From Natronococcus sp. A-GB7 (GTDB lineage Archaea > Halobacteriota > Halobacteria > Halobacteriales > Natrialbaceae), in the NCBI RefSeq assembly GCF_029688865.1, contig NZ_JARUKV010000006.1, positions 62,001-126,000 on the forward strand: DNA of 64,000 nucleotides, in the 5' to 3' direction. Position numbers and translations under genes: made by a program. Positions 13,515-39,607 of the stretch are shown one piece after another. The notes under the pieces are model-generated. The model did not search any database and was not told the origin of the DNA. It worked only from the letters and a program-made list of their open reading frames with translations. The first letter of the stretch is position 1, and each line of letters begins with the position of its first letter.

Positions 13515-14093
13515 ATGAACCGACGGACGATGCTTCTCGGAGCCGGCGCCGCACTCACGGCGACGATAGCCGGGTGCGGAAGCGCGGACGGAGAAGATAC
13601 GGACGAACCGGACGACGCCGACGAACTGGACGACTCGCTCGAGGACGATAGGGACGACGACGCCGACGCCGACGACACCCCGACCGACGAACTTTCCGGG
13701 GAGGACGACGAGGACGACGAGGACGATGACCCAGTCGAGGACCGAATCCCCGGGTTCGAGGACGACGCATTTGCTGTCGACAGCGACGACGTCTCGATCG
13801 GAGCGGTGACTCGCGATGATGAGACGGTTACCGTTCGGATGGAGGCACACACCCTCGACCAGGAGGCACTCGAGGACGACATGGAGGACGCCGGTCGGGC
13901 GTTCGTCGGGGCCATCGACGACGTCGACGAGTTCACCGGGGCCGTCTCGACCGTCGAGTGGGACGTCGTGTACGGGGGTAACGAACTCGCCGACTTCCAC
14001 ATCGAATCGGAGTGGCTCGAGGCCTACGACGCGGGCGAACTGTCGGAGGACGAGCTCCTCGATCGGATTCTCGAAACGGGATCGATAGACTAA
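13515..14093 (+). CDS. Tat-exported acidic lipoprotein, function unknown
   Basis: The 192-residue protein begins MNRRTMLLGAGAALTATIAG, a twin-arginine signal followed by a lipobox with Cys (IAGC) near residue 21. It should therefore be exported folded and anchored by a lipid-modified cysteine. Residues 25-85 are a very Asp/Glu-rich low-complexity linker, followed by a globular C-terminal domain with alternating charged strands. A GTG nine bases upstream is an alternative start. It is the last normal-composition gene before the AT-rich island. I do not recognise the C-terminal domain. Confidence 0.75.
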   Translation: MNRRTMLLGAGAALTATIAGCGSADGEDTDEPDDADELDDSLEDDRDDDADADDTPTDELSGEDDEDDEDDDPVEDRIPGFEDDAFAVDSDDVSIGAVTRDDETVTVRMEAHTLDQEALEDDMEDAGRAFVGAIDDVDEFTGAVSTVEWDVVYGGNELADFHIESEWLEAYDAGELSEDELLDRILETGSID

Positions 14094-14341
14094 GCCTCGA
14101 GGAAACCGGATAGTAAACTGTATATGGCGATACAGAAATGGTGGCAGAACGCCGCAGAACTTCGGAGGATGGGTTTTGACAAACCACCAAATTAGTGACG
14201 TTTCTATATTCGGACATGCATGATTGGTATGAAATGTGACCGGTTAGTTCCAGTTTTAGATCTAAGACAGTTAGAATGTGATGTAGGTGAGTGAATGAAA
14301 GTGCAGGAAACTTATTACTGATAGAGTTATAACCATTACAT

Positions 14342-14560
14342 ATGAGTCAGAACAAATCTGACGGTGGGAAATTCATTGCTTCAATTCATCGTTCAATACT
14401 TGGTGCGCTACTTGCAATAGCCGGAATTGTAGGGCTTGCTGGGGTAATGGAAGCGGTTACCGGAGGGCATCTGTTGTTTGGTGTTGTTGGAATCGTAGTT
14501 GCTGGAATCGCAGTTTATTGGATCTATTACCTGTTTATGGAAGGTTTGCAAGAACGGTAA
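14342..14560 (+). CDS. Small two-helix membrane protein, unknown function
   Basis: The 72-residue protein begins MSQNKSDGGKFIASIHRSI and has two hydrophobic segments (about residues 18-35 and 42-62) with a short loop containing Glu and Gly residues. The ATG follows an AT-rich stretch suitable for a promoter. Codon use is AT-rich like the rest of the island. No family is recognised. Small membrane proteins of this kind are common in haloarchaeal viruses and plasmids, but that is only context. Confidence 0.55.
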   Translation: MSQNKSDGGKFIASIHRSILGALLAIAGIVGLAGVMEAVTGGHLLFGVVGIVVAGIAVYWIYYLFMEGLQER

Positions 14561-14644
14561 GACAGATTCGCTATCTACAGATGTGTATGGAACAGACAGC
14601 AACAGACCAGCAATGTTTATAAGTTATTGTTGGTAATAGTACAT

Positions 14645-14821
14645 ATGGAAGTTACGCGTAAAAATGTCCTCAAGGTATTTGGGCCAATATCTATACTAAC
14701 AGTCCTGATATTAGTGTATCTTACATCGCTTTCTTCTTGGTGGGTTCTCGGAATAACGGTCCTCGTTGCCATAATTATCCCTCAGTCGATAATTCGGTTT
14801 CATCCCAGAATTAATGTCTGA
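14645..14821 (+). CDS. Small membrane protein, unknown function
   Basis: A 58-residue protein starts at the ATG of MEVTRKNVLKVFG. Two hydrophobic stretches (about residues 12-28 and 31-46) are followed by a short basic tail. A TATA-like TTTATAAG lies about 30 bp before the ATG, which suits a leaderless transcript. A TTG 18 bp upstream is an alternative start. Nothing more specific can be said. It follows the 72-residue membrane protein in the same direction, and the two may be expressed independently. Confidence 0.45.
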   Translation: MEVTRKNVLKVFGPISILTVLILVYLTSLSSWWVLGITVLVAIIIPQSIIRFHPRINV

Positions 14822-14905
14822 GTTCCCACACATAACGGATCTCCCTCTACTGACTATTGAAACCTACTACAGAACTCTATGCTATCGACACTGACCAGCA
14901 CCTCA

Positions 14906-15640
14906 TCACAGCTTCTTGTATGTGAGATCTTTTGAAGAAACATATTCACGAATCAGTTCACCAAGTTCCCATGTACGATGTACGTCTGCTAAATTATGCT
15001 GAAGTATCGGAAGAAATTCTTCGCGTTTATAGCGTTCGACAGCACTCCCAGAGTCTTCGAACGGATCATACGGCTCGCCCTGATACCAGATGTGATCCAC
15101 ACTTTCGGAAGTGGTCTCTATCGGAACCTGATCAACTTCATTAAACAAGATGTCATGTGATCCGACAAGCGTGTTTATATCTGATCCGTTACCGTAGGCG
15201 GTGTGCTGCGTGTTGAGTCGCTTCTTGACTGGTTCAAAAATGTCTGCGAATTGGATGTTGTCGAACACCCAGTTGAGATCGTTCTTGATGCATCGGGTGC
15301 GTAGGAACGGAAGATCGAAGCCACCAGACCATGAGTCGGCGTTATAGGCAATAAGTCGGTTGTAGTTTCTGTCGAACTTCTCAAAAATGATTTCTTGTAC
15401 TGCCTTCAGTAGGTGCCATTCATTTTCTACTACGGTCACTGAGACCGGAACACCACCACTCACACTTTCAAGCCGTTGTTCGCTTTTCTGAGACGATAGT
15501 GTACTTCCATCAGTATTGATTACGAGTTCTGCTCGTCCTGTTGGAAGCCAGAAACCGGAGACCGTGATTTGATCAGACCACCCGAATCCTGTTGTTTCGA
15601 TGTCCCATGCGACGTGTGTTCGATCTATTTCTTGGATCAT
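14906..15640 (-). CDS. RNase H-fold 3'-5' exonuclease-like protein (DEDD type)
   Basis: From MIQEIDRTHVAWDIETTGFG the protein is about 244 residues. It carries three exonuclease motifs in order: ExoI DIETTGFG, ExoII around LIAYNADSWSGGFDLPFL, and ExoIII in HNLADVHRTWEL. These provide the acidic DEDD-type metal ligands of the DnaQ/PolB-exonuclease superfamily. No polymerase domain follows, so it is a stand-alone nuclease. An earlier ATG at 15784, overlapping the stop of the preceding gene, would add 48 residues that read through a repeat element; I regard that as less likely. It may take part in replication or repair of the island. Confidence 0.6.
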   Translation of the reverse strand: MIQEIDRTHVAWDIETTGFGWSDQITVSGFWLPTGRAELVINTDGSTLSSQKSEQRLESVSGGVPVSVTVVENEWHLLKAVQEIIFEKFDRNYNRLIAYNADSWSGGFDLPFLRTRCIKNDLNWVFDNIQFADIFEPVKKRLNTQHTAYGNGSDINTLVGSHDILFNEVDQVPIETTSESVDHIWYQGEPYDPFEDSGSAVERYKREEFLPILQHNLADVHRTWELGELIREYVSSKDLTYKKL

Positions 15641-15710
15641 CGCACCTGTAGCATCAGGAAGAGATAACAAAACGAACGGGGCTGAACTTCCGGAAGTCCG
15701 TGAGATGATT

Positions 15711-15745
15711 CTATCAGTAGTTGGTAGTACGGTTTCTTTATTCAG
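15711..15745 (-). repeat. 35-bp island repeat, copy 1
   Basis: On the minus strand this reads as an AATAAAGAAA half followed by CGTACTACCAACTACT. Copies 2, 3 and 4 match it at most positions. It lies 36 bp beyond the stop of the small membrane gene on this strand and forms an inverted pair with copy 2. Confidence 0.75.
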
Positions 15746-15780
15746 AACTTTGCCTGAAGCCCACGTTACGCACAGGGGAC

Positions 15781-15996
15781 TCATTGACGACGGGTGTAGA
15801 TGAATTGTGAAATAATGAACACAAGCGCGGCAGAAAAGAAGATTCCCATTGTCTCAATTGCCAACTCACCAAGAGCCCAGTACTGATACGAGAGAACAAT
15901 AAAGCCAGCAACCAGAGCCGCTGTGAACCCGTTTCTGTAGCTCCTCGCTTTATTATCATCTAAGTCTGAATCTAAAACGATTTCTGCAATTCCCAT
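15781..15996 (-). CDS. Small membrane protein inside inverted-repeat pair A
   Basis: The 71-residue protein has an acidic N-terminus (MGIAEIVLDSDLDDNKARS) and two hydrophobic helices. The first ends in an SYQYWALGEL segment. The motif resembles the FQYWQSN segment of the 61-residue protein at 17328-17513, which lies between the second pair of repeats. The two may therefore be distant paralogs carried in equivalent cassettes. The stop overlaps a possible upstream start of the exonuclease gene by four bases. Function is unknown; the repeat arrangement suggests it belongs to a unit with orc1/cdc6. Confidence 0.5.
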   Translation of the reverse strand: MGIAEIVLDSDLDDNKARSYRNGFTAALVAGFIVLSYQYWALGELAIETMGIFFSAALVFIISQFIYTRRQ

Positions 15997-16057
15997 AGTG
16001 TATATGTAATCATAACAACTGGATCACTAATAGGTTTCTGCCGTTCAGTACGCATAC

Positions 16058-16131
16058 CTACGTAACGAATCGACCAATTCAGATTCACGGCTCAGATTGA
16101 ATAAAGAAGCCGTACTACCAACTACTGCTAG
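16058..16131 (+). repeat. Island repeat, copy 2 (core 16098-16131) with extended flank
   Basis: The core reads TGAATAAAGAAGCCGTACTA then CCAACTACTGCTAG and is inverted relative to copy 1. About 40 bp on its left (from CGTAACGAATCGACC to CACGGCTCAG) also match the left flank of copy 4. The extended direct repeat is therefore about 74 bp. It lies between the end of orc1/cdc6 and the start of the small membrane gene. Confidence 0.75.
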
Positions 16132-16138
16132 GTACGGG

Positions 16139-17146
16139 CTATGAAGAATGAGTATTGTATGTACGCCCCCGGTTTTCGCCGTTAGCGACAACAAGGTTGT
16201 AGTGCTGCATCTTCTGTAGATAGTACCGCATCATTCGCTTTGTCTTCGGCTCATCAATCCGATTTTGGTAGACCTCATACAGACGGCCAGCCGAAGTCTC
16301 TCCTTCCTCAGTTAGAACATCATAGAGTATCCGTTGATCCTCTGTAAGTTTCTCTACGTTTTTCTGCTTGATTTCCGTTTTCGCTTCCGGTACTGCATCA
16401 TCAATATACTCGTCTGAAATACCGTTCTCATTGTTTTGTGAAGCCAGTCGTGCAGCTTTTCGAAGCACTCCTATTGCAACACGAGCATCGCCTTTAGACG
16501 CGACAGCAATGCGCTCTAACTGATCAGGAATAACAGCATCTGGCTCCAACCCCCAGTGTACCCTGTCTTCGAGTATGGATACGATCTCCCCACTCCGATA
16601 CGGTTTGTAATGGATGCGTGTTATCGTCTGCAGACGGCTTTTGAGACGATTATCTAGCCGGGAGAACAGATCCTCCTCTTGATTCGCTATGAGAACCATT
16701 TCGACGTTTGGTGTGCGGTATATGTTGTAAAGTACGTCGGTGGTTTCGAGTTGATCTGCTTCATCAAGAACGACTACGTAGGGTGGGCCGTCGTAGTTGT
16801 GTAGTCGGTCACGGAGTTTGTCGGTGGGTGTGGATTGACGGTGGATGTCGAGTGTTTGGTCAATGCCTTCAAGGATGCGGTAGAGGGTCTGGAACTGCGT
16901 ATGGTCTTTCCAGCAGTTGACGTATTGTGTGTTGAGATCGATTACGTTTTCGTGGAGTTGTTTGAGGATGTACTGTGTAGTGCAGGTTTTTCCGACGCCT
17001 GGGGGTCCGTGTAGGAGGGTGGTTTCTCCTGGTTCGCCGTTGGTGAGTGGTTTGAGAGCGGCGGAGAGTGTAGTGAGTTCGTTATCGCGGTGAACGAGGT
17101 CTTTGGGTACGAATTCGGCTTGGAGGACTCGCGCGTCTGTTATCAT
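16139..17146 (-). CDS. Orc1/Cdc6 family replication initiator (AAA+ ATPase)
   Basis: The 335-residue protein starts MITDARVLQAEFVPKDLVHR, the usual N-terminal block of archaeal Cdc6 proteins. It has Walker A LLHGPPGVGKT around residue 45, Walker B YVVVLDEADQL around 130, and a sensor-2-like segment with GDARVAIGVLRKA near 230. The C-terminal 80 residues look like the winged-helix domain that binds origin DNA. It is shorter than typical chromosomal haloarchaeal Orc proteins (about 400 residues), as expected for plasmid- or virus-type members. It is AT-rich in composition. Four copies of a 35-bp repeat flank it, so a local replication origin is plausible. Confidence 0.88.
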   Translation of the reverse strand: MITDARVLQAEFVPKDLVHRDNELTTLSAALKPLTNGEPGETTLLHGPPGVGKTCTTQYILKQLHENVIDLNTQYVNCWKDHTQFQTLYRILEGIDQTLDIHRQSTPTDKLRDRLHNYDGPPYVVVLDEADQLETTDVLYNIYRTPNVEMVLIANQEEDLFSRLDNRLKSRLQTITRIHYKPYRSGEIVSILEDRVHWGLEPDAVIPDQLERIAVASKGDARVAIGVLRKAARLASQNNENGISDEYIDDAVPEAKTEIKQKNVEKLTEDQRILYDVLTEEGETSAGRLYEVYQNRIDEPKTKRMMRYYLQKMQHYNLVVANGENRGRTYNTHSS

Positions 17147-17208
17147 AACGCATACTTCAACAGCATCCTAAATAAGTGGAAGTGGTGAATTTCCGCTTTT
17201 CCGATTTA

Positions 17209-17244
17209 CTGGTTAGTAGTTAGTAGTGCAGTTTCTTTATTCAG
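17209..17244 (-). repeat. 36-bp island repeat, copy 3
   Basis: On the minus strand it reads CTGAATAAAGAAACTGCACT followed by ACTAACTACTAACCAG and matches copies 1, 2 and 4 at most positions. It sits 62 bp upstream of the orc1/cdc6 start and 83 bp upstream of the small membrane gene on the plus strand, so it lies in the shared divergent promoter region. It is inverted relative to copy 4. Confidence 0.7.
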
Positions 17245-17327
17245 AATTGTGTGTGAAACTCCCGATCAGTATAGGTCAGGGAAATAAAGAGCATAAGAAT
17301 TAAACTCTTTGACAGAATACGACGCCT

Positions 17328-17513
17328 ATGAACCAGACTACGGAACGTCTTGAATATCACATCAAGGGTGCATTCATAGTCCTGCTCGTCCTCGCGGCAT
17401 TCCAGTACTGGCAGAGCAACCTCGATCTCGGATTCCTAGTTGTAGTGGCAGCTGGTTACGTTGTTCTCAGGATGGCGTTTGATATTATCCAGGAACGATA
17501 CATAAACGCCTGA
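17328..17513 (+). CDS. Small membrane protein inside inverted-repeat pair B
   Basis: The 61-residue protein begins MNQTTERLEYHIKGAFIVL. Two hydrophobic helices occupy about residues 14-25 and 32-48, separated by QYWQSNLD. It resembles the 71-residue protein of repeat pair A in length, topology and the QYW motif at the end of helix 1. It is divergent from orc1/cdc6, with 181 bp of AT-rich DNA between them. Function is unknown. The pairing with orc1/cdc6 and the repeats is the most informative context. Confidence 0.5.
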   Translation: MNQTTERLEYHIKGAFIVLLVLAAFQYWQSNLDLGFLVVVAAGYVVLRMAFDIIQERYINA

Positions 17514-17535
17514 ACGCTGTTCCCTTCGCACTCTA

Positions 17536-17610
17536 TACATAACGTATCGACAATTCAGATTCACGGCCCAGACCAAATAAAGAAATTGTACTACCAACTA
17601 CTACTGACAG
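17536..17610 (+). repeat. Island repeat, copy 4 (core 17574-17610) with extended flank
   Basis: The core reads CAAATAAAGAAATTGTACTA then CCAACTACTACTGACAG. The 38 bp to its left (ATAACGTATCGAC to CACGGCCCAG) match the flank of copy 2 with few differences. It is inverted relative to copy 3 and ends at the stop codon of the winged-helix gene. Confidence 0.75.
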
Positions 17611-18075
17611 TCATTCATCCTTGTCTACTCTTCCTTGTTCTTCCTTTGCAGGGTCCGTAGTGGTGTACAGCGTAGGTGCAATCGGAATAAATTCATCATC
17701 CGCATATTTTTTGTCCATTTCTTCATAACCATCTACAATAGTGTCTAACACATTATCACGCGCATCATCGAATCCTTTACGCGCATCTCTTAATTCGTAA
17801 TGATAGTGAACTAAGCCAATATGCTCCATATTCATCAATAAATACCTGCCCCTGTTCGTCAAAATATACGCATGTGATTTTCCCTTCTCTCCATCAACTA
17901 CTTCAGTGTCAACTAGTGACAAATATTCTGCCCGTTTCAACCTTTTAGTTAATGTTCCTTGACTAATGTCGAGTGCATCATCTAATTCGTTGAAACGAGA
18001 CCCATTATATCCCATCTCACACACCATTCGTATTGACCCTTTTTTCCACAGAAACCCTCTAACATCTCCTGACAT
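17611..18075 (-). CDS. Winged-helix transcriptional regulator
   Basis: In this 154-residue protein, residues 5-85 form a winged-helix domain: a helix with SRFNELDDAL, a recognition helix ISQGTLTKRLKRAEYLSLV, and a wing containing VDGEKGKSHAYILTNRGRYL. The pattern is that of MarR/HxlR/PadR-like archaeal regulators. The C-terminal 60 residues are charged and probably helical. Composition is AT-rich, as in the rest of the island. It may control genes of the island. It lies divergently from the transposase gene, with about 150 bp between them. Confidence 0.7.
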   Translation of the reverse strand: MSGDVRGFLWKKGSIRMVCEMGYNGSRFNELDDALDISQGTLTKRLKRAEYLSLVDTEVVDGEKGKSHAYILTNRGRYLLMNMEHIGLVHYHYELRDARKGFDDARDNVLDTIVDGYEEMDKKYADDEFIPIAPTLYTTTDPAKEEQGRVDKDE

Positions 18076-18223
18076 TAATCTCTAATTCATATTGCAACAT
18101 ATTAAATTCTACAGTACACTCTAATTTAGCGCACGCTCTCACCTTTTTGATTAAATACACCCATCAACTACGCCGATTACCGGAAATCGGAAACTTCGCA
18201 CTTAAATCTTAGTTTAAAACCAG

Positions 18224-19930
18224 ATGACATCTACCATGAAACCATCAAACCACGATTCTCTCCTTGACGATCTAGCTGAGCAGGCAGAAGAGCGCTGCCA
18301 AGTCCGCGACCATATATCAAAAGTAATTGCTGATCTCGAATTTTCAGACGAAATGTTCACAGACCAGCACGATGGGTCTGCTTTCTACGATTTTGAGGGA
18401 ATGGTACGTATATTCCTTTACAAAGAAGTTCGCGGCCTCAGCCAACGAGAAACTGCACGACACTTGGAGCAATGGCCACACATACTGATGAAATTCGGGC
18501 TGGACCGTTCTCCAAGACAAGCAACATTGTCACATACGCGCCAAAATCGGTTTTCCTTCACTGATTGGCTATTCCTGCGTGATGCTGCATCTCAAATCCA
18601 AGAAATCGCGGAAGAACACGATCTGATTCATGTTCCAAACGACTCTCCACCAATTTCACCGGACGAAATTCAGGACGGTGGGCTAACTGAGAAAGAAATT
18701 CGACGGGCCACGCAACTCGCCCGGAAACACGTATTCAAACCGTTCAGCACAGGACGTGCTGAGAACGCAAAATACGACGATAACATTTTCTGGGAGATGC
18801 AGGCCTACTTGTCGATGGTTAGATGTGGGACTGCACAAGGCGGTCGGCGCTTTGCTCGAATGAGCAAACGAAGCGAGACACCACACGGGGACACACACGA
18901 AAGAACAATAAAGAAAATTGGTGCTCCTAATCCCCAAACCAGTCTCAAAGAATGGAGTGATGGATCAGACACGGTGAATTGGAAACGGACTCGGAAACAG
19001 TTACTTGATCCGTTCAATGACGCTATTGAACATCTCTTAGAAGAATCCACACTCAAAAACGATATTCGGGAACCAGTTAACGTCGCCATTGACATTACAC
19101 CATGGCAGTTCTATCCCTCCCCATGGAAGGACAGAGACCGGAATCTTCCAAAAGAAGACTATCCAGAAATGGTTGCAGGGTTGAAAGATAGGGGTGTTCG
19201 TGGATATGAGTTTGCGACGTTAACTGTCGTAGGAGTAAACACCCCGATTATTCTTGCTGTTGAACCAGTTAAACGTCGCTCTGCATGGGAAAATGATGGG
19301 GTTGGATCAACACCAGTAGCGGATGTAGTAGAGCGGCTTCTGAATAAGGCGCATCAGTATGTTGAGATCAACAAGGTGATGGCTGACCGGGAGTTTGACA
19401 CCCATCGTGTTCGAGATATTGTTGACCGAAAGGGGATGACCTACTTGATTCCGAAGCGGTTCAGTGCCTCGAAGGATTTTGAGAACGCTGAAAAGGTCGA
19501 GCAACATCCTCACGCAGATGTGGCAGTCGAGCAAGATGTTTCGCTTTCAGTTGATGATAGAACACATGAAGTAAATTTCATGTATGTCCCGTCAAAATCG
19601 GGTGAGGGTTCTGCACTGTTCACAACAAATGCAGATGTAACTCCGGATCGGGCACAAGGTTTGGTGGCTCAGTACCGGGACCGATGGATGATTGAGAACG
19701 AGTACAAGTCGATCAAAGCGGATTTCCTGCCGGTCACCTGCTCGAAGGACTACCGCATGCGGATGTTCTATTTTATTGCGGCTACCCTGATGTACAATCT
19801 GTGGCGGTTGACGAATCTTGTTCTTCGGGACTTGGTGGATGTGGATCTTGGTGAATCTCCACCAATAACAGCAGGAGAATTCGTGGAGTTGTTGGCGGTT
19901 TTCGTTGAGCCGCAGACAGAATACGGGTAA
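18224..19930 (+). CDS. IS4-type DDE transposase
   Basis: The 568-residue protein has the acidic residues of a DDE transposase: D in VNVAIDITPW (about residue 290), D in KVMADREFDTH (about 390), and E in YRDRWMIENEYKSIK (about 490). The last segment fits the IS4 signature Y-x2-R-x3-E-x6-K exactly. The N-terminal 120 residues contain a helical region with GLSQRETARHL, probably the DNA-binding part. At 568 residues it is longer than many IS4 members, but large haloarchaeal members exist. The frame is intact. I could not identify convincing terminal inverted repeats or a target-site duplication. Confidence 0.88.
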   Translation: MTSTMKPSNHDSLLDDLAEQAEERCQVRDHISKVIADLEFSDEMFTDQHDGSAFYDFEGMVRIFLYKEVRGLSQRETARHLEQWPHILMKFGLDRSPRQATLSHTRQNRFSFTDWLFLRDAASQIQEIAEEHDLIHVPNDSPPISPDEIQDGGLTEKEIRRATQLARKHVFKPFSTGRAENAKYDDNIFWEMQAYLSMVRCGTAQGGRRFARMSKRSETPHGDTHERTIKKIGAPNPQTSLKEWSDGSDTVNWKRTRKQLLDPFNDAIEHLLEESTLKNDIREPVNVAIDITPWQFYPSPWKDRDRNLPKEDYPEMVAGLKDRGVRGYEFATLTVVGVNTPIILAVEPVKRRSAWENDGVGSTPVADVVERLLNKAHQYVEINKVMADREFDTHRVRDIVDRKGMTYLIPKRFSASKDFENAEKVEQHPHADVAVEQDVSLSVDDRTHEVNFMYVPSKSGEGSALFTTNADVTPDRAQGLVAQYRDRWMIENEYKSIKADFLPVTCSKDYRMRMFYFIAATLMYNLWRLTNLVLRDLVDVDLGESPPITAGEFVELLAVFVEPQTEYG

Positions 19931-20188
19931 CTGACTGTTGTTATCGTATTCGCCTTTTGAGTAGTTGCATCGCTCGTTAGCGCTTCTTATTTTTATCAAT
20001 AACTAACCGTATTTTATATTAGTAAATAATTTTAAATCCGTATCTTCTCTGACCTGATTTCTCAGATAAACAGAATTGGTCAGCGGACCGCTTTTCGTTT
20101 GTCAACCGGTCAAACTCCGAAGTTGTGACGCCGACTCCTGTGGGGCGATCCCGGAGCACCCCGGCTCGAGGTAATCCTCGGCTTCGCG
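19931..20188. other. Non-coding right end of the island
   Basis: The first part is very AT-rich (for example TATTAGTAAATAATTTTAAAT near 20020-20035). GC content rises sharply from about 20090. The transposon end and the island boundary should lie here. I see no gene, and no clear inverted repeat matching the left side of the transposase. Confidence 0.4.
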
Positions 20189-31184: not shown

Positions 31185-33752
31185 CTACAGCAGCGGGCCG
31201 TCCCGCACCGTCGCTGCGTAGCGTTCGCCCTCGTGGAGGATCTCGACCTCGGTGCCGGGTTCTGCGTACTCCGGCGGAAGGTAGGCGTAGGCGACGCAGG
31301 CGCCGACGGTGTACCCGTACTCGGCGCTGTGGACGTACCCCAGCGATTCGTCACCGTCGAGGACGGGTCGGTTCTTGAAGACGACCGCGTCCTCGTCCTC
31401 GAGGGTCAGACAGGCCACCTTGTGATCGATCCGTTCGCCCTCGGCGGCCTCGACGACCGCGTCCTTCCCGATGAACTCGGTCTCGAGGTCGACGGCGAAG
31501 CTCAGCCCCGCCTCGTAGGGGTTGTGCTCGGTGTGGAGGTCCTCTCCCCACAGCCGGAACCCCTTCTCGATGCGCAGGGAGTCGAGCGCGCCGTTGCCGT
31601 ACGGCCGGAGGTCGTGGTCCTGACCGGCCTCCCAGAGGTGCTCCCAGAGCTGCCCGCCGTACTCGCTGGGCGTGTACAGCTCCCAGCCGAGTTCGCCGGC
31701 GTAGGAGACCCGCAGCGCCCGCACCGGGACGTTCTTGACGAACATCTCCTGGGAGGTGAAGTAGGGGAAGGCATCGTCCGAGAGATCGGTTCGGGTCACC
31801 TCGCTCAACACGTCGCGGGCGTTGGGCCCCGTGAGAACGAACGAGGTGAGCTCCGAGGTGACCTCCCGGACCGTGACGTCCTCGGGGGCGTGTTTCTTGA
31901 CCCAGGCGACGTGGTTCTGCCCGACTTCTCGACCCGTGGTGAGCACGAGGTAGCGATCGTCGTCCGTTCGGGTGACGGTGATGTCGGCCCGCACGCCGCC
32001 CTCCTCGTTGCACATGAGGGTGTAGCGCACCTGGCCGACGTCGATGTCCATGTCGTTGGTACAGAGGTACTGGACGAACTCGCCGGCACCCTGTCCGCTG
32101 ACTTCCATCTTGTTGAACGAGGTCATGTCGTGGATGCCGACCTCGTTGCGGACGTGTAGCGACTCGGCGCCCTCGATCGGCGACCAGTACTTCGCCTCCC
32201 AGCCGTCCCGCTCGGGGACGTCCTCGCCGTAGCGCGCCAGCAGGTCGGCGTTCGAATCGAACCACTGGGCCTCCTCCCAGCCCGCCTCGGCCCACAGCTC
32301 GGCGTCGAGCTCCTGGAGTTTGTGGTAGACCGAGCTGCGGCGGATGTCCCGCTGGTGGTCCGTCCAGGTCCACTTGGGGTGGACGATGTTGTAGACGATC
32401 CGGTACTCCTCGCCGCCGATGTCGCGGGCGAAGTCCCAGCTGCCCTCGTGGGGCTGGAACCGGTTGACGTTACAGTGCGAGAGGTCGATTCGGCCGTCGG
32501 AGAGCTTCGGGGCACCGGTCTCCATCCACTCGGCCAGCGCACGCCCCGCGCCGCCGGCGTGGGTAACCCAGATGGCCGCGGCGGTCCAGAGCCCGTCGTA
32601 CTCCTGGACGGGGCCCATCACGGGGAGGCCGTTGGGCGACTCCGCGAACATCCCGTTGTACTTGTGCTCGAGCTCCTTGCCCTTGGTCGCGGGCAACAGC
32701 TCGTCGCTGGCCTGACGGGGCGCCTTGTCCGGACGGTCCGGGTGGGTCGCGTTGTTCAGGTGGTAGTCGGAGAACTCGTGGATCGAGCCCTGCTCGCCGC
32801 CTTCCTCGTTGCCGCCCAGCTCCTGTGGGTCGGGGACGAGGGGCTCGTGGTTGTACGAGCCGATTCCGTAGGCGTCGCCGTGGGTCCGGAAGTACAGGGC
32901 GTTGTCCTGGTCCCGAAGGATCGGTCGGTCGGGGTTCGCGAGCAGGCGGTCCGCCTTCTCGCCGGAGACCTCGCGGTAGTTCTCGTAGACCGGGTCCTGG
33001 GTAACGTCCTGGTCGCCCGAGAGCTCCTCGAGGGACTCGGTGATCGTGTACTGGTGTTCGACCGGCGTCACCGGGAGGTGGACACCGAGCTGTTCGCCAA
33101 GCTGGCGCGCCCAGATGTTCGTCGCGATCACGACCTCGTTGCACTCGATGTCGCCGTGTTCGGTGACGACGGCCTGCACCTCGCCGTCCTCGACCGCGAC
33201 GTCCTCGGTCCGCGTGTGAGGGACGAACTTCGCACCCCGATCCATCGATGCCCTCGCCAGCGCGGCGCAGGCCTTGACCCCCGACACCTGGCCGTCGGTC
33301 GGCGAGTAGTAGCCGCCCTGGATGACGTCGCTGTCGACCAGGGGGAGCTTCTCCTCGACCTCCTCCGGCGAGAGGAGCTGTGGGTCCGGAACGCCCCAGG
33401 CGGTGCCGTGCTCGACCCGGCGCTGGAGGAAGTCCATCCGCTCGTCGCTCCGGGCGACCTCGATCCCGCCCGTCTCGCTGTAGAGCTGGTTTCCGTCCTC
33501 GTCCTCGAGCTGGGAGTACAGCTTGCGGCTGTAGTTCGCGAACTTGGTCAACACCTTGTCCTCGGCGGTCTGGAACATGATCCCCGGCGCGTGACTCGAG
33601 GATCCTCCGGTGGTCGGAAGCGGCCCCTGGTCGACGACGACGACGTCCTCGCGCCCGAACTCGGTCAGGTGGTACGCCGTGCTGCAGCCGACGATTCCGG
33701 CGCCGACGACGACGGTGTCGGCCTCGGCCGGCAGACTGTCGTGTGTATTCAT
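31185..33752 (-). CDS. FAD-dependent dimethylglycine/sarcosine dehydrogenase-like enzyme (paralog 2)
   Basis: The 855-residue protein begins MNTHDSLPAEADTVVVGAGI and has the same order of domains as paralog 1: FAD-binding oxidoreductase with GAGIVGCSTAYHL and GGSSSHAPGIMFQT, a linker, and a C-terminal GcvT-type THF-binding domain starting near DMTSFNKMEVSGQ. Shared blocks with paralog 1 run the whole length, so the two are products of duplication with divergence. The pair fits successive demethylation of dimethylglycine and sarcosine. It is divergent from the HTH-protein gene at 34067, suggesting that this protein may regulate it. Confidence 0.9.
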   Translation of the reverse strand: MNTHDSLPAEADTVVVGAGIVGCSTAYHLTEFGREDVVVVDQGPLPTTGGSSSHAPGIMFQTAEDKVLTKFANYSRKLYSQLEDEDGNQLYSETGGIEVARSDERMDFLQRRVEHGTAWGVPDPQLLSPEEVEEKLPLVDSDVIQGGYYSPTDGQVSGVKACAALARASMDRGAKFVPHTRTEDVAVEDGEVQAVVTEHGDIECNEVVIATNIWARQLGEQLGVHLPVTPVEHQYTITESLEELSGDQDVTQDPVYENYREVSGEKADRLLANPDRPILRDQDNALYFRTHGDAYGIGSYNHEPLVPDPQELGGNEEGGEQGSIHEFSDYHLNNATHPDRPDKAPRQASDELLPATKGKELEHKYNGMFAESPNGLPVMGPVQEYDGLWTAAAIWVTHAGGAGRALAEWMETGAPKLSDGRIDLSHCNVNRFQPHEGSWDFARDIGGEEYRIVYNIVHPKWTWTDHQRDIRRSSVYHKLQELDAELWAEAGWEEAQWFDSNADLLARYGEDVPERDGWEAKYWSPIEGAESLHVRNEVGIHDMTSFNKMEVSGQGAGEFVQYLCTNDMDIDVGQVRYTLMCNEEGGVRADITVTRTDDDRYLVLTTGREVGQNHVAWVKKHAPEDVTVREVTSELTSFVLTGPNARDVLSEVTRTDLSDDAFPYFTSQEMFVKNVPVRALRVSYAGELGWELYTPSEYGGQLWEHLWEAGQDHDLRPYGNGALDSLRIEKGFRLWGEDLHTEHNPYEAGLSFAVDLETEFIGKDAVVEAAEGERIDHKVACLTLEDEDAVVFKNRPVLDGDESLGYVHSAEYGYTVGACVAYAYLPPEYAEPGTEVEILHEGERYAATVRDGPLL

Positions 33753-34066: not shown

Positions 34067-35284
34067 ATGAGGATCGGTGACTCGGTTGATACACTCTCGC
34101 AAATAGTAGACCGGTACGAGGCGGACGGCGGCGTGATCCGGCAGGTCGACGCGACGATCTCCGGGCGAGCGGACTCGGCCGGTCCGAGCGTCTCGGTCGA
34201 CGTCGTCGCCCCGCTGTGTGACGCGACGGCGTCCGAATCGGAATCCGGAACGGCTCCCGAAGCGGCACGTCTGGACGACGACGGCGGACTCCGCCTCGAG
34301 TTCGCCCCGTCGGCACTCCCCACGATAGCCGAGTACGCGCCGGAGGACGTCGTCGTGGCGAAAGACGACGCCCGCGTAACCGCGGACGGCGACGTCGTCG
34401 TGACGTTTGCGCTCGGGTTCGAGGAGGAGTCGGAGCCGGCTCGAGACGAGACGCCGGCGAGTTCGGCGGCCGAATCGGACGCCGGGGTAGAACCGGCCGA
34501 GACCGACGGACCGCTCGAGACGGACGAACCCCTCGACGGGGACGCCGTCGACTCGGTGTCGACGGACTCCCGACTCGAGAGCGAACCCGAAACGGAGTCC
34601 GCGATCGACTCCGAGGTCTCGCGGGCCCTCGAGGACGCGCGCAACGAGGAGCTGCCGCCGTACGACGACGCCGAGTACCTGCAGTGTCTGTACGAGTCCT
34701 TCGAGACGTTCGCGGCGATGGCCGACGTCCTCGAGATGGACGTCGCCGCCGAGACCGTCCGTCGGTACATGATCGACGCCGGCGTGCACGACCCGGTCTC
34801 CTACGACGTGGACGACACGGCGGAAGCGGAGGACAGAACTGAGTCGGTCGCCGACTCGAGCGAGCGGCTCCCCGCGGACGGATCGGAGTCCGTCGCGAGC
34901 GACGCGGAGCCGGAGCCTGATCTCGCTCGTCCCGACGGGACCGCCGAACCGGCCGACGATATCCCGGAGCGGCCCCTCGTTGCGGACGGGATCGGCCTTC
35001 CGGACGACGTCGAGGTCGAGGGGCTGATCGACGCGGTCGAGTCGTCGATGACGCTGTACGACGTCTCTCGAGCGCTCGACCTCGAGCGCGACCGGACTCG
35101 GGAGCTGCTCGAGGGGCTCGACCTGATCGATCTCGTGGTCAGACGCGTCTACGCCTCGAGAACGCCGGAGGAGGGTCCGTCGCGGGAGGAGATCGCCGAG
35201 CGGATCCGCGGCAGCGACCGGCACCGATCCGAGCGACGCGCCGGGGATGCCCACTCCGGCGATCGGCAGTCGGCCGTCCCGTAG
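34067..35284 (+). CDS. Probable DNA-binding regulator with acidic linkers and two helix-turn-helix-like segments
   Basis: The 405-residue protein is strongly acidic. Residues 1-130 form a beta-rich N-terminal domain (MRIGDSVDTLSQIVDRYEAD). A low-complexity Glu/Asp/Ser linker covers about 130-190. A first HTH-like segment reads FAAMADVLEMDVAAETVRRY (about 225-245), then a second acidic linker. A second HTH-like segment is TLYDVSRALDLERDRTRELL near 335. No enzyme motif is seen. Its gene lies between and divergent from a dehydrogenase gene and just upstream of the Rieske pair, so regulation of betaine catabolism is a reasonable inference. The family is not firmly recognised. Confidence 0.65.
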   Translation: MRIGDSVDTLSQIVDRYEADGGVIRQVDATISGRADSAGPSVSVDVVAPLCDATASESESGTAPEAARLDDDGGLRLEFAPSALPTIAEYAPEDVVVAKDDARVTADGDVVVTFALGFEEESEPARDETPASSAAESDAGVEPAETDGPLETDEPLDGDAVDSVSTDSRLESEPETESAIDSEVSRALEDARNEELPPYDDAEYLQCLYESFETFAAMADVLEMDVAAETVRRYMIDAGVHDPVSYDVDDTAEAEDRTESVADSSERLPADGSESVASDAEPEPDLARPDGTAEPADDIPERPLVADGIGLPDDVEVEGLIDAVESSMTLYDVSRALDLERDRTRELLEGLDLIDLVVRRVYASRTPEEGPSREEIAERIRGSDRHRSERRAGDAHSGDRQSAVP

Positions 35285-35435: not shown

Positions 35436-35458
35436 TATATATTGGTGTTCAATAACAC
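35436..35458 (+). promoter_or_regulatory. TATA box with adjacent palindrome upstream of Rieske gene 1
   Basis: TATATATT at 35436-35443 is followed directly by GTGTTCAATAACAC (35445-35458), a perfect 5-bp inverted repeat with a 4-bp spacer. A palindrome overlapping the region just downstream of a TATA box is well placed to act as an operator. The start codon follows 42 bp later. Confidence 0.5.
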
Positions 35459-35499
35459 GGGTGAACGACTTTCAGTATATCCTGTGTTGGTGGTGCCAT

Positions 35500-36585
35500 A
35501 TGACACAGTGGGACGACTCACGAGCCGCCGCGGTGAGTGAGAACGTTGCAGACGAGTCGAGCACGTCATCGGCAAATCAGCTCGCCGACCCCGATCCCTT
35601 CGAGACGGAGAAGGAGACGGTCTTCGGCGAGTACTGGATGTACGCCGGCCACGCCAACAGCATCGCCGAGCCGGGACAGTTCTTCACCCGGACCGTCGGC
35701 GACCGGCAGCTGATCGTCGTCCGCGGTCACGACGGCGAGATCAAGGCGTTCGACAACGTCTGTGCCCACCGCGGCTCCAAGATGGTCGAGGATACGCCGA
35801 TGACCGATCCCGGCGGCGGGAGCCGGATCCAGTGTCCGTACCACCTCTGGACGTACGACCTCGACGGCGAGCTCCGGAGCACGCCCAAGAGCTTCGAGGA
35901 CGCGAGCCTGAACCCCGACCTCGAGAACGAGGACGTCCAGGAGTTCGACTGCGAGACCAACGGCCTGAACGACGTCCACGTCGACAGCGTCGGCCCGCTG
36001 CTGTTCGTAAGCCTGAGCGACGATCCGCCGGCGCTGTCCGAGCAGGTCGGCGTGATGACGGATCGGCTCGAGTCGCTGTCCCTCGAGGGGTACGAACACG
36101 GCCGACGGATCGCCGAGGAGGTCGAGTGTAACTGGAAGACGGTCGCGGGCGCCGCCCTCGAGCGTCTCCGTCGCGGCGACCGGCTCGCGGGGCTCGAGCC
36201 GTCGGACGCCGCCCTCGAAACCGCGGATCGTCACTGGCTCGTCCGATCCACCCGTGATGGGGGCCGCGAGGCGCAGGTTCACTACCTGTGGCCGAACCTC
36301 ACGATCGAAGTGTACGACGACGTCGACGGCTACGGAACCTGTCGCATCGATCCGATCGACGGCGATCGGTGTCAGCTGATCGCCGACTACTACGTCCGGG
36401 ACGGCGACCTCGAGGAGAAAGAGCGCGAACGGATCCGGACCAGTCGCCGACGGCGCGCCGAACTGGTCGAGCTGGCCGGACGCCGTCGGGACGACCACGA
36501 GGCCTCCGCGCAGGCCCGACTCGAGCCGGACGATACCGTCGGGAGTCTCCATCAGCTCGTAACGGGAGGTGACGCCGACCGATGA
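35500..36585 (+). CDS. Rieske oxygenase-like alpha subunit retaining only the Rieske centre
   Basis: The 361-residue homolog of glycine betaine/choline monooxygenase-type alpha subunits is read from MTQWDDSR, the start shared with its paralog. The Rieske ligands are intact: C88 and H90 in VCAHRG, C112 and H115 in CPYHLW. In the catalytic domain the usual E-x2-H-x4-H motif after NWK is replaced by AALERLRRGD with a small deletion (residues about 218-230), and the distal Asp ligand is replaced in the RRRRAELVE segment. It should therefore hold a [2Fe-2S] cluster but no mononuclear iron. The stop overlaps the next gene's ATG (ATGA). It is probably an electron-transfer partner of the paralog at 37296. 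Confidence 0.85.
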   Translation: MTQWDDSRAAAVSENVADESSTSSANQLADPDPFETEKETVFGEYWMYAGHANSIAEPGQFFTRTVGDRQLIVVRGHDGEIKAFDNVCAHRGSKMVEDTPMTDPGGGSRIQCPYHLWTYDLDGELRSTPKSFEDASLNPDLENEDVQEFDCETNGLNDVHVDSVGPLLFVSLSDDPPALSEQVGVMTDRLESLSLEGYEHGRRIAEEVECNWKTVAGAALERLRRGDRLAGLEPSDAALETADRHWLVRSTRDGGREAQVHYLWPNLTIEVYDDVDGYGTCRIDPIDGDRCQLIADYYVRDGDLEEKERERIRTSRRRRAELVELAGRRRDDHEASAQARLEPDDTVGSLHQLVTGGDADR

Positions 36586-36959
36586 GCGCGCAACGACAGG
36601 TCGCGTACGCCGCGAGCTGCCCCGACTGCGACGTCGACCTGCACGGCGACGACCCGAACGAGATCGTCGAGTTCTACCGCCGCCACTCGAGCGTCACGGG
36701 CCACGACGTGGAGTTTACGCGGATCCAGCCCGACCTCACCGACGCGGTGACCGAGGACGACCTCAAGGAGGTGTACACGCTCGAGGACGTCGTCGCCAAG
36801 CTCGAGGCGGAGTACGAGGACGGCGTTCCGATCGGCGCCGTCGCGGCGGCGATGAGCGAGCAGGGACTGTCGATCGGCGAGACGCTCGAGAAGATCCACG
36901 AGATCCGAATGGGTGGTGGGCTGTACGAACCGCAGGACGACCACCTGCGTGCGTTCTGA
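36582..36959 (+). CDS. Zinc-knuckle plus winged-helix protein (MCM-C-terminal-like)
   Basis: The 125-residue protein is translationally coupled to the first Rieske gene by an ATGA overlap. Near the N-terminus CPDCDVDLHG forms one CxxC half of a possible zinc site. Residues 65-125 (TLEDVVAKLEAEYEDGVPIG onward, ending IRMGGGLYEPQDDHLRAF) resemble the winged-helix domain at the C-terminus of archaeal MCM helicases, where a Gly-x-Leu-Tyr-Glu-Pro turn closes the wing. No helicase domain is present. It probably binds DNA or acts as an adaptor. Its place in the oxygenase operon suggests a regulatory role, which is inference. Confidence 0.7.
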   Translation: MSAQRQVAYAASCPDCDVDLHGDDPNEIVEFYRRHSSVTGHDVEFTRIQPDLTDAVTEDDLKEVYTLEDVVAKLEAEYEDGVPIGAVAAAMSEQGLSIGETLEKIHEIRMGGGLYEPQDDHLRAF

Positions 36960-37295
36960 TCGGGTAGCCGTCGCGGTCGGCGCATCGGCTTCCGGATCGT
37001 CCTGCTGTCGACGAACGCCGGTCCTACACTGCGAAGACGACCGCCCGAACGACCTCTTCTCGGCTGCGACCACGATCGTACCCAGTACCGCCGGGAACGG
37101 CGGTCGTTGACCAGTGAGATCCAGAACTCGAGTCGCAACGCTGCCGACGATACTGGCTCGACGAACGCGAGCGACGGCGGGCGACTCGAGACCGGAGCGG
37201 CCCCGCTGCCGGCGCGGCGGGAACCACCCGTCATATAAATGGGCGCTATATACCTAGTTAACTTCTTTCATGAACTCGATCATCATAGAGAGTGT
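36960..37295. other. Intergenic region upstream of Rieske gene 2
   Basis: About 336 bp with no gene seen. TATA-like CATATAAAT (37232-37240) and CTATATAC (37246-37253) lie 45-65 bp before the ATG. A TTCATGAA palindrome at 37267-37274 follows. The second Rieske gene therefore seems to have its own promoter as well as any read-through. Confidence 0.5.
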
Positions 37296-38306
37296 ATGAC
37301 ACAGTGGGAGCACGCTCGGACGAAGCCAGTCAGCCCGGATATCACGGAAAAGTCGAACGCGTTGCCGGCGAAGTACTTCACCGAGCCCGAGACCTTCGAG
37401 ATGGAGAAGGACAAGGTCTTCGGGCGGTACTGGGTGTACGCCGGCCACGCCAGCTGTATCGACGAACCGGGACAGTTCTTCACCCGCAGCGTCGGCGGTC
37501 GCGACCTCGTCGTCGTCCGCGGGACGGACGGCGACGTCGAGGTCTTCGAGAACTTCTCGGCACGAACGGGGTTCCCCGTGGTCGAGGAGACGTCGATGAC
37601 CGATCCCGGCCGCGTCGACCCGGCCGAGTTCGAACACGCCGAGTCGGTCCGCGTCGACAGCATCGGACCGCTTTACTTCGTCAACCTGAGCGACGAGCCG
37701 CTGTCGCTGACCGAGCAGGCCGGCGTGTTGAAGGAGCGACTCGAGTCGCTGCCCCTCGAGGAGTACGAGCACGGCTGTCGGGTCGTCTCGGAGGTCGAGT
37801 GCAACTGGAAGGTGTTCGCGGGCAACTACTCCGAGTGCGATCACTGCCAGGCCAACCACCAGGACTGGATCAAGGGGATCGAGCTCACCGACTCCGAGCT
37901 CGAGGTCAACGACTACCACTGGGTGCTCCACTACACCCACGACGAGGACGTCGAGGACGACCTCCGGATCCACGACGAGCGCGAGGCCCAGTTCCACTAC
38001 TTCTGGCCCAACTTCACGATCAACATGTACGGCACCGCCGACGGCTACGGCACCTACATCATCGACCCGATCGACACCGGCCGCTTCCGCCTGATCGCGG
38101 ACTACTACTTCCGTGACGGCGATATCTCGGAGGAGGAGCGCGAGTTCGTCCGTACGAGCCGCCAGCTCCAGGAGGAGGACTTCGAACTCGTCGAGCGCCA
38201 GTGGGCAGGATTGCGGACCGGCGCGCTCGCACAGGCTCAGCTCGGCCCGAACGAACACACCGTCCACAAGCTCCACCGCCTCGCTCAGGAAGCCTACGAC
38301 GCCTGA
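37296..38306 (+). CDS. Rieske oxygenase-like alpha subunit retaining only the mononuclear-iron site
   Basis: The 336-residue paralog of the 361-residue protein upstream starts MTQWEHARTK. The two align closely from residue 1, so S88 and R90 stand exactly where C88 and H90 of the Rieske centre should be. About 41 residues containing the second ligand pair (CxxH) are deleted after residue 105. The catalytic domain is intact: E180, H183 and H188 in NYSECDHCQANH, and D295 in QEEDFELVERQW match the bridging carboxylate and iron ligands of this family. It can therefore bind catalytic iron but cannot hold the [2Fe-2S] cluster. The likely substrate is glycine betaine, from context. Confidence 0.87.
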   Translation: MTQWEHARTKPVSPDITEKSNALPAKYFTEPETFEMEKDKVFGRYWVYAGHASCIDEPGQFFTRSVGGRDLVVVRGTDGDVEVFENFSARTGFPVVEETSMTDPGRVDPAEFEHAESVRVDSIGPLYFVNLSDEPLSLTEQAGVLKERLESLPLEEYEHGCRVVSEVECNWKVFAGNYSECDHCQANHQDWIKGIELTDSELEVNDYHWVLHYTHDEDVEDDLRIHDEREAQFHYFWPNFTINMYGTADGYGTYIIDPIDTGRFRLIADYYFRDGDISEEEREFVRTSRQLQEEDFELVERQWAGLRTGALAQAQLGPNEHTVHKLHRLAQEAYDA

Positions 38307-38323: not shown

Positions 38324-39607
38324 TTACGTGTTGATGGTGTCGGCTCGACGGTGAAGCCAGATCGCACAGCCGATCGTCACGAGCCCGGCGACAGCGGCGA
38401 TTCCGAACGCGACGCGGTACCCCGTCACCGTGTAGACACGGACGCCGCCGACGAACTCGCCGGTCCAGTAGGCGTCGAGTACCCACCCCATCGCCGTCGG
38501 GAAGACGGCGGCCCCGAAGAACGAGGCGCCGTTGATCGCGCCGAGCGAGATCCCGCTCGCCCGGCTCGAGTGGCGCTCCTTGATCAGGGGATAGGTGAGG
38601 ACGAACGTCCCCAGCAACGCACCGGCCACGAAGAACACCGCTCCGACGACTGCGAGCGGCGGGTCGCCGACGATCGCGAGCAGCGCGAGCGCGCCGGTGT
38701 AGACGAGCCCGCCGCCGAGGACGAACTCGGTTCGACGCTCGAGACGATCGGAGAGCCAGCCGAACGCAGGCGGGCCGACGGCGCTCCCGACGCCGCCAAG
38801 CAGCGTACACAGCGACGCCACGGTGACGGAGGTGTCGTACACCTGCACGACGTAGGGGATCCCCCAGAGGCCGAACAGCGTGAGGTTCACTCCGCCCGTA
38901 CAGAACAGGAGGACGCTGACGACCCACGTCCACCGATCGCGCAGGACGGTGGCGCCGTGGGTTCGGATCTCTCCCAGCGTGAGCCGGGACTGCTCGGGAA
39001 CCCCCGCGATCGGTTCGAACCCCGCGCGTTCCGGCGAGTCCCGGACGACGAGCGCCGTCACGGCGGCGGCGACCAGTCCGACGGCCGCGAGCATCGACAG
39101 CGAGGTTCGCCAGCCGGTCGCGTCCACCAGCACGGCCAGCGGCGTCGTCGCGAGCACGCCGCCGACGCCGCCGACGGCGAAGCTCAGCCCGTTCATCGTG
39201 CCGAACTCGTCGACGCGGTACCAGCTGGCACAGAACCGCAGCATACAGACGAAGATCACGCTGCCGCCGAGCCCGATCACCAGCCGACCGGCCAGCGCCG
39301 AGGGGTACCCCTCCGCGAGCGCGAACCAGAGCGCACCGGCGTTCATCGTCACTGCGCCGACCGCCGCCGTCCGCCGTGGACCGATTCGGTCGACGAGGAC
39401 GCCCGTCGGCAGCTGCATCAGGGCGTAGACGAGGAAGAAGACGGCGTGAAGCGTGCCGAGCTGCCCGCCGGTCGTCCGAAACGCCGCCATCAGGTCGTCG
39501 GCGAGGACAGCCGTCGAGAGCCGGTAGACGTTGACCAGCAGGAAGGAGACGGCCAGAATCCCCCACAGCAGCCAGCGACGGTTTCTCGGCGACGACCAGT
39601 AGTCCAT
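38324..39607 (-). CDS. MFS transporter
   Basis: The 427-residue protein has 12 hydrophobic segments. MFS signatures include LPTGVLVDRIGPRRTAAVG between helices 2 and 3 and a related GWLSDRLERRTEFV between 8 and 9. It converges with the second Rieske gene (18-bp gap). The substrate is unknown; transport of a methylated amine or an organic acid would suit the neighbourhood but nothing in the sequence shows it. Confidence 0.9.
   Translation of the reverse strand: MDYWSSPRNRRWLLWGILAVSFLLVNVYRLSTAVLADDLMAAFRTTGGQLGTLHAVFFLVYALMQLPTGVLVDRIGPRRTAAVGAVTMNAGALWFALAEGYPSALAGRLVIGLGGSVIFVCMLRFCASWYRVDEFGTMNGLSFAVGGVGGVLATTPLAVLVDATGWRTSLSMLAAVGLVAAAVTALVVRDSPERAGFEPIAGVPEQSRLTLGEIRTHGATVLRDRWTWVVSVLLFCTGGVNLTLFGLWGIPYVVQVYDTSVTVASLCTLLGGVGSAVGPPAFGWLSDRLERRTEFVLGGGLVYTGALALLAIVGDPPLAVVGAVFFVAGALLGTFVLTYPLIKERHSSRASGISLGAINGASFFGAAVFPTAMGWVLDAYWTGEFVGGVRVYTVTGYRVAFGIAAVAGLVTIGCAIWLHRRADTINT

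Follow-up and report, generated by a model that had tools for sequence, protein, structure and literature searches.

The small protein (SP) whose gene directly follows a Rieske oxygenase gene in the window, by which the whole analysed stretch of 64,000 nucleotides from Natronococcus sp. A-GB7 is meant, is very likely a dedicated partner or regulator of this oxygenase, and it combines a likely zinc finger with a C-terminal domain that, judged by profile comparison, is a relative of the winged helix of haloarchaeal MCM helicases. The features concerned are as follows:

35500 to 36585, forward strand: Rieske gene 1 (R1), with the start chosen by homology in a reading frame open from 35461.
36582 to 36959, forward strand: SP gene, 125 aa, from the open reading frame list, Pfam and the family alignment.
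Residues 11 to 47 of SP: likely zinc finger (PF25214).
Residues 67 to 125 of SP, approximately: MCM-type winged helix (PF25215 match at residues 72 to 122).
37296 to 38306, forward strand: Rieske gene 2 (R2), with the start chosen by homology.

The linkage of SP to the oxygenase was surveyed in 391 haloarchaeal genomes, of which 67 proved to hold strong copies, defined by E < 1e-15, at 70 places in all. In every one of the 70, the gene directly upstream on the same strand is that of a GbcA/CntA-like Rieske oxygenase (two of these loci, L042 and L044, are cut by contig ends), and no strong copy was found away from an oxygenase gene in the 391 genomes. The gap between the two genes runs from -8 to +88 nt in the 66 scored copies, 57 of which have 30 nt or less, and measures +102 and +103 nt in two further copies with corrected starts (68 copies with a readable start in all); as the SP start nearest the oxygenase stop was taken, this choice favours short gaps. 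In the window, the TGA of R1 (36583-36585) and the ATG of SP (36582) share the letters ATGA, a 4-nt overlap, just as the first-pass annotation had read it. The linkage holds across numerous genera, in which the identity of SP falls to as little as 31%, while the genes on both sides vary and several of the copies are plasmid-borne. Haloferax volcanii, which served as a control genome, has an SP match as well. Four close relatives were obtained from a contig search, in a Natrialbaceae MAG (99%) and in Natronococcus species (76-90%). The weaker SP matches listed, which were left out of the count, are frames of at least 500 aa, a pair of fragments next to a strong copy in G357, and a frame of 213 aa in G123, whose product is a distant relative and whose locus of 3.3 kb showed no oxygenase; the weaker match in the window's own genome reads as MCM.

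The same linkage is found in the opposite direction, given that a search for oxygenase relatives at E <= 1e-30 returned 72 genomes, namely all 67 of those with SP (in the genus of the window, the oxygenase is present as R1 and R2) and five others, which have a divergent oxygenase only (46-56%), with all of its motifs kept and without SP. The conservation beside Rieske gene pairs, which the first-pass annotation had proposed as a check, thus stands for the oxygenase and falls for the pair, as in most cases the gene before SP is one intact oxygenase gene, and R2 occurs in 16 of the 391 genomes, always together with a partner that bears the Rieske centre (assembled across contig ends in G192). 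Neither the oxygenase nor SP was found in G197 and G296, though both genomes keep SOX and HTH_10 at 82-93%. The former retains BCCT-like (36%) and TDH (70%) genes together with DMG, SOX and HTH_10 (these three at 87-93%, DMG at 87%), with approximately 150 bp between SOX and HTH_10, and in the latter SOX and HTH_10 adjoin, while the chromosome of G181 bears an oxygenase fragment at the SOX/HTH_10 site, without SP. Given these joint absences and the fragment, the oxygenase and SP appear to have been gained and lost together, and, by this distribution of genes, the pair appears to come and go as one.

The winged helix of the MCM type that had been proposed for SP is borne out by a profile-profile search, in which the C-terminal part of SP (68 members) matched the C-termini of 30 haloarchaeal MCM proteins with a probability of 98.2% (E 3.6e-14, 59 columns), against 0.1-1.0% for five alignments from the SP loci that served as controls, a likeness far above chance. 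The single SP sequence scores 19.4 bits (E 0.0011) on the model MCM_WH_arc (PF21120), below its curated cut-off of 26.1, and the only matches to this model at E <= 0.1 in the window's own genome are MCM and SP (SP at E 0.0025); 39 of the 68 SP members match it at the same threshold, the best of them at 4.4e-6. The two domains are homologous over the whole length of PF21120 and have a YEP wing motif in common. The structural searches were weak, as MCM was reached at E 0.034 by the single sequence and no better by the profile (0.31), and AlphaFold2, run on five SP sequences, gave a weak model (mean pLDDT 56) with helices at residues 67-77, 84-93 and 98-109 and with the wing not resolved. A comparable winged helix with the YEP motif also closes a protein of 580 aa for which Pfam gave no match, encoded in another locus (L003; G000:C18:55724-55975); this protein may, at a guess prompted by PMC8329085, be a haloarchaeal RPA-associated protein.

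Unlike the archaeal MCM, SP has no helicase, with no match to the AAA+ ATPase core in its 125 aa; it is a stand-alone protein with a zinc finger, and its predicted recognition helix is acidic, with a net charge of -0.11 per residue and a K+R fraction of 0.09 against 0.27 in MCM. The winged helix of archaeal Rpa2 is reported to work chiefly through contacts between proteins, and that of MCM to be an allosteric regulator which interacts with Orc1 (PMC11686378), while a review suggests that the MCM winged helix may sense DNA structures (PMC4619765). Given this acidic helix and the modes of action described for Rpa2 and MCM, the earlier label of a replication-type DNA-binding module is right as to the MCM type and overstated as to DNA binding.

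A 168-aa protein of Haladaptatus (L111:5833-6336) has a pair of finger-like repeats and a winged helix that fits the MCM model more closely than the Pfam model HVO_B0008_C, and it connects the SP family with the MCM winged-helix group. No Rieske gene was found in the 12.3 kb around this relative, nor in the 3.3-3.5 kb around two other distant relatives (L184 and L185), which likewise have finger-like repeats and a winged helix resembling that of MCM. Such relatives, with no oxygenase found in these stretches, indicate a wider family of proteins with a zinc finger and an MCM-type winged helix that also occurs in other contexts, and of which the SP branch is, on the sequences compared, the oxygenase-linked branch.

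Both halves of SP exceed the Pfam cut-offs, HVO_B0008_N (PF25214) with 71.7 bits (cut-off 27) and HVO_B0008_C (PF25215) with 100.4 bits (cut-off 27.4), and both models are matched by all 68 members of alignment A1, from which two of the 70 copies (L038 and L043, with runs of N) were left out. SP is therefore a member over both models, the Pfam descriptions of which hold no function; the linkage to the oxygenase and the relation to MCM were worked out in the present analysis, and 'HVO_B0008' was not found named in the open-access literature searched. No ligand-binding domain was found in SP by the domain-model scan. The CxxC noticed earlier before the winged helix (C13, C16) is indeed present, as part of a larger CxxC-x18-H-x5-H set (C13, C16, H35, H41), which is complete in 59 of the 68 aligned members, whereas five of the remaining nine are without all four ligands and four have C13 alone. 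The ligands are kept or lost together, which fits a single metal site, and the N-terminal half is likely a zinc finger with a C2H2-type ligand pattern, through which zinc would be bound; Zn_ribbon_Brz is weakly matched by six of the 68 members.

The surroundings of the operon point to the pathway in which the oxygenase may work, and comprise the following in the window:

31185 to 33752, reverse strand: DAO-GCV_T fusion, dimethylglycine-oxidase-like, a pathway neighbour.
34067 to 35284, forward strand: cluster c6 protein, with no Pfam match over the cut-off, before the R1-SP operon.
38324 to 39607, reverse strand: MFS transporter, also a neighbour in three other loci (L052, L053 and L065).

Across the loci, the neighbours, whose clusters were named from one scanned representative each, include DAO-GCV_T fusions (dimethylglycine-oxidase-like), a sarcosine-oxidase-like DAO protein, a BCCT transporter and serine hydroxymethyltransferase (SHMT), besides a PALP/ACT enzyme (threonine/serine deaminase-like) and GcvT-like and MTHFR-like proteins. 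The cluster c6 protein, present in 22 of the 70 SP loci, is a possible regulator. Elsewhere in the window, positions 14001-20000 have a G+C of approximately 0.45, against approximately 0.66, and are perhaps an inserted element.

Variants of NYSECDHC-x3-H, with the pattern Y-x-E-C-x-x-C, are found in R2 and in the intact oxygenase relatives, which would have this pattern in common with the group V Rieske monooxygenases (CntA, GbcA and Stc2). It appears to fit the residues Tyr203, Glu205 and Cys206/Cys209 described for CntA of this group (PMC10952381, PMC7948474), a fit drawn from the description and not from the CntA sequence. The best NCBIfam model is GbcA, and the scores of 70, 112 and 142 bits are far under its cut-off of 670, which means that the oxygenase is not a GbcA equivalog. 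Glycine betaine is the likeliest substrate, and the SP-linked oxygenase would probably start its breakdown. A survey of 2011 described the use of betaine by haloarchaea, with dimethylglycine-oxidase-like genes near BCCT transporters, and the passages concerned contain neither 'dioxygenase' nor 'ring hydroxylating' (PMC3102087). Among titles and the beginnings of abstracts in the open-access literature searched on haloarchaeal Rieske and betaine work, on oxygenases lacking a Rieske centre, on GbcA and on dimethylglycine, nothing was found on the oxygenase-SP pair.

In the genus of the window, where R1 is 52-54% identical to the oxygenase query and R2 is present, the oxygenase looks split, to judge from its motifs, into a protein with the Rieske centre (R1) and one with the catalytic iron (R2). 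All four Rieske ligands are kept and both mononuclear-iron His are lost in R1 (6/6, the window and five relatives), while R2 keeps the catalytic iron motif NYSECDHCQANH...D and has lost all four Rieske ligands (6/6 sequences), and neither has the full set of a Rieske oxygenase alpha subunit, i.e., the Rieske ligands together with the 2-His-1-carboxylate. The match of R2 skips the residues after 107-109 in all 16 cases, where the second ligand pair is located (up to residue 117). Over five species pairs, which have species in common and so are not independent, the dN/dS of R2 is 0.02-0.12 in the catalytic half, a strong constraint, and 0.12-0.39 in the Rieske half, and that of R1 is 0.14-0.52 in the Rieske half and 0.25-0.73 in the catalytic half, the Rieske half being the lower in all five pairs and the two halves differing little in one of them (0.30 and 0.34).

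Electrons are described as passing between neighbouring subunits in CntA (PMC7948474, PMC10952381), which makes a mixed R1-R2 oligomer chemically sensible. A comparable division of labour is described for the 7-methylxanthine demethylase NdmCDE, in which NdmC is a catalytic subunit without a Rieske centre, as R2 would be, the centre is on another protein, as on R1, and NdmE is a non-redox helper (PMC4408171); the extra Rieske centre is on the reductase NdmD in that system, whereas here it would be on R1, an oxygenase paralogue without an iron site of its own. It is conceivable, if rather unlikely, that R1 (as a Rieske relay) and R2 (with the iron) form a true two-gene betaine oxygenase, in which electrons cross the R1-R2 interface and SP, whose gene lies between theirs and which is built from a replication-type winged helix, is a required third component for docking or assembly, like NdmE.

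Upstream of both oxygenase genes, the window has a conserved promoter element:

35447 to 35466, forward strand: element of the R1-SP operon, in the form of the inverted repeat GTTCA-N10-TGAAC, with a TATA-like box (35436-35442) immediately before it.
37246 to 37262, forward strand: corresponding R2 element CTATATACCTAGTTAAC, preceded by a TATA-like box (37234-37239); its position was set by eye, and its matrix score is low.

A start rule found 63 of the 70 SP-linked promoters (L038, L042-L044, L052, L062 and L095 are missing), and in 58 of these 63 a 15-nt matrix has its best match between -55 and -40 before the oxygenase gene, a count which arises partly by construction, given that the matrix was built from the same promoters. 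The R2 promoters, which are outside the matrix set, score at least 12 in 13 of 16 cases, at -46/-47, and R2 lies at least 10 kb from SP in five of these genomes; the three lowest-scoring R2 promoters, that of the window among them, show a variant at the site by eye. None of the five promoters of SP-less oxygenases scores above 6.0, an absence that is confounded by the divergence of these oxygenases. Matches of at least 12 off the oxygenase promoters (30 of 83 in the 70 loci) are below the shuffled expectation (26 in half the positions).

Two lineage forms of the element were also searched. The first, chosen from the genomes in which it was counted, occurs as a single exact copy, located at the oxygenase in every case, in 14 of 16 genomes; G298 and G387 have no exact copy, and its one-mismatch copies elsewhere are hardly more frequent than those of a backward control (12 vs 9). 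A one-mismatch copy lies 46 nt before the SHMT gene in G118 and G293 (L214 and L215), and the oxygenase and SHMT elements perhaps make up a small regulon. For the second form, the 16 genomes searched gave 28 exact matches, of which 17 fall, by their coordinates, at promoters of the oxygenase or of R2 and 11 elsewhere; G132 has none, and the reversed control gave 0. A related element is still carried before the operon by the nine SP members that have lost zinc ligands. The matches at the oxygenase and R2 promoters make it likely that these genes are under conserved control, and the coupling of substrate supply to transcription by SP, as suggested in the first-pass annotation, is possible, as the element tracks the SP gene.

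The protein that reads the element was sought by covariation in 59 promoters, L098, L101, L106 and L107 being left out of the 63. HTH_10-type genes, the family to which Bat belongs, are found in 36 of the 70 SP loci (the one representative scanned matches HTH_10 and BAT), and an IclR-type cluster in 10. In 33 loci with HTH_10, the distances between elements correlate with those of the HTH_10 protein at r 0.75 and with those of the SP winged helix at 0.67, and the partial correlation with the element is 0.48 for HTH_10 given the SP winged helix and 0.16 for the SP winged helix given HTH_10. Given the oxygenase, the partial r between the SP winged helix and the element is 0.45, against 0.43 for the leader behind the element, taken as a control, and, since the leader correlates with SP nearly as well as the element does, the covariation may reflect shared ancestry. 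The winged-helix covariation was thus dropped as a case for SP alone as the reader, and the covariation in the 59 promoters did not single out SP. No exact copy of the first form was found in three genomes that have a close HTH_10 (74-87%) and no SP, in which the oxygenase is also absent. In the genome of the window, no close HTH_10 homologue was found beside the operon, the best (42%) being on another contig.

The reading that is tentatively put forward, and which is narrowly ahead of that of an enzyme subunit, is that SP acts as a local co-regulator dedicated to a Rieske oxygenase operon for a quaternary-ammonium compound (probably glycine betaine), in the manner of Brz and Bat. SP would be co-translated with the oxygenase and would act on the promoter element, most likely not alone, its winged helix joining a Bat-type (HTH_10) DNA-binding factor by protein-protein contacts, and would in this way adjust how strongly the oxygenase and R2 are expressed; the zinc finger may serve as a contact or sensing part. 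A precedent is described in Halobacterium salinarum, where Brz, a small zinc-finger protein of 60 aa encoded upstream of bop, and Bat, an HTH protein, together drive the bop promoter (PMC2253796, PMC3184054). As in the bop regulon, a small zinc-finger protein is encoded here beside the gene concerned, with an HTH_10-type gene often nearby; unlike Brz, SP is encoded downstream of the gene concerned and has a winged helix, and its regulatory role is a predicted one. A pair of this kind would account for the element, for the acidity of the helix and for the correlation with HTH_10, and the reading rests, besides, on the two-domain build of SP, its invariable linkage, the tracking of SP by the element and the Brz/Bat precedent. 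Counting against it are the lack of strong SP copies away from the oxygenase, a pattern met more often with partners of enzymes than with regulators, and the elements themselves, given that the one-mismatch copies of the first form are about as numerous as those of the backward control and that 11 of the 28 second-form matches are elsewhere. The acidic recognition helix, the lack of a close HTH_10 beside the window's operon, the nearly equal correlation of the leader control and the confounding of the SP-less promoters weigh in the same direction.

A somewhat less probable, yet serious, possibility is that SP belongs to the oxygenase itself, as a subunit without catalytic function or as an assembly factor, and that its winged helix binds the enzyme and aids assembly, cluster loading or the docking of the electron donor, as postulated for NdmE with NdmC and NdmD. 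This role best explains the strict two-way linkage with its short gaps, and agrees with the joint absences in G197 and G296, the SP-less fragment in G181, the acidic helix, the protein contacts and allostery described for the winged helices of Rpa2 and MCM (PMC11686378, PMC4619765) and the NdmE precedent (PMC4408171). The five aligned members whose R1 lacks the iron site are also the five in which SP carries an insertion of six residues, although this insertion is confined to one clade and may be a single event. It leaves unexplained why the element tracks SP and recurs before the unlinked R2 and two SHMT genes, and the five divergent oxygenases that keep all motifs without SP indicate that this type of enzyme does not need SP in general. 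That SP binds the element directly and alone, as an autoregulator, is improbable: it is the sole DNA-binding-like protein present at all 70 loci (HTH_10-type 36, IclR-type 10, c6 22), and the three SP-less genomes with a close HTH_10 are without an exact copy of the first form, but the acidic helix, the absence of a ligand-binding domain in the domain-model scan, the better correlation of the element with HTH_10 and its persistence in the nine members with lost zinc ligands all argue against this. It is scarcely credible that SP is functionally unconnected with the oxygenase and hitchhikes by linkage on mobile, plasmid-borne betaine clusters, as, despite the plasmid copies, the linkage is kept across many genera and down to 31% identity while the flanking genes vary, and the dN/dS of SP is 0.03-0.44 over the same five non-independent species pairs.

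Whether SP proves to be the local co-regulator or a subunit, a protein family without a function gains a clear partner, present in all 67 genomes with SP. The split into R1 and R2 offers a natural test of the passage of electrons between neighbouring subunits in Rieske oxygenases, and the outcome for SP would reveal either a Brz/Bat-like control unit for the breakdown of osmolytes or a new kind of Rieske helper.
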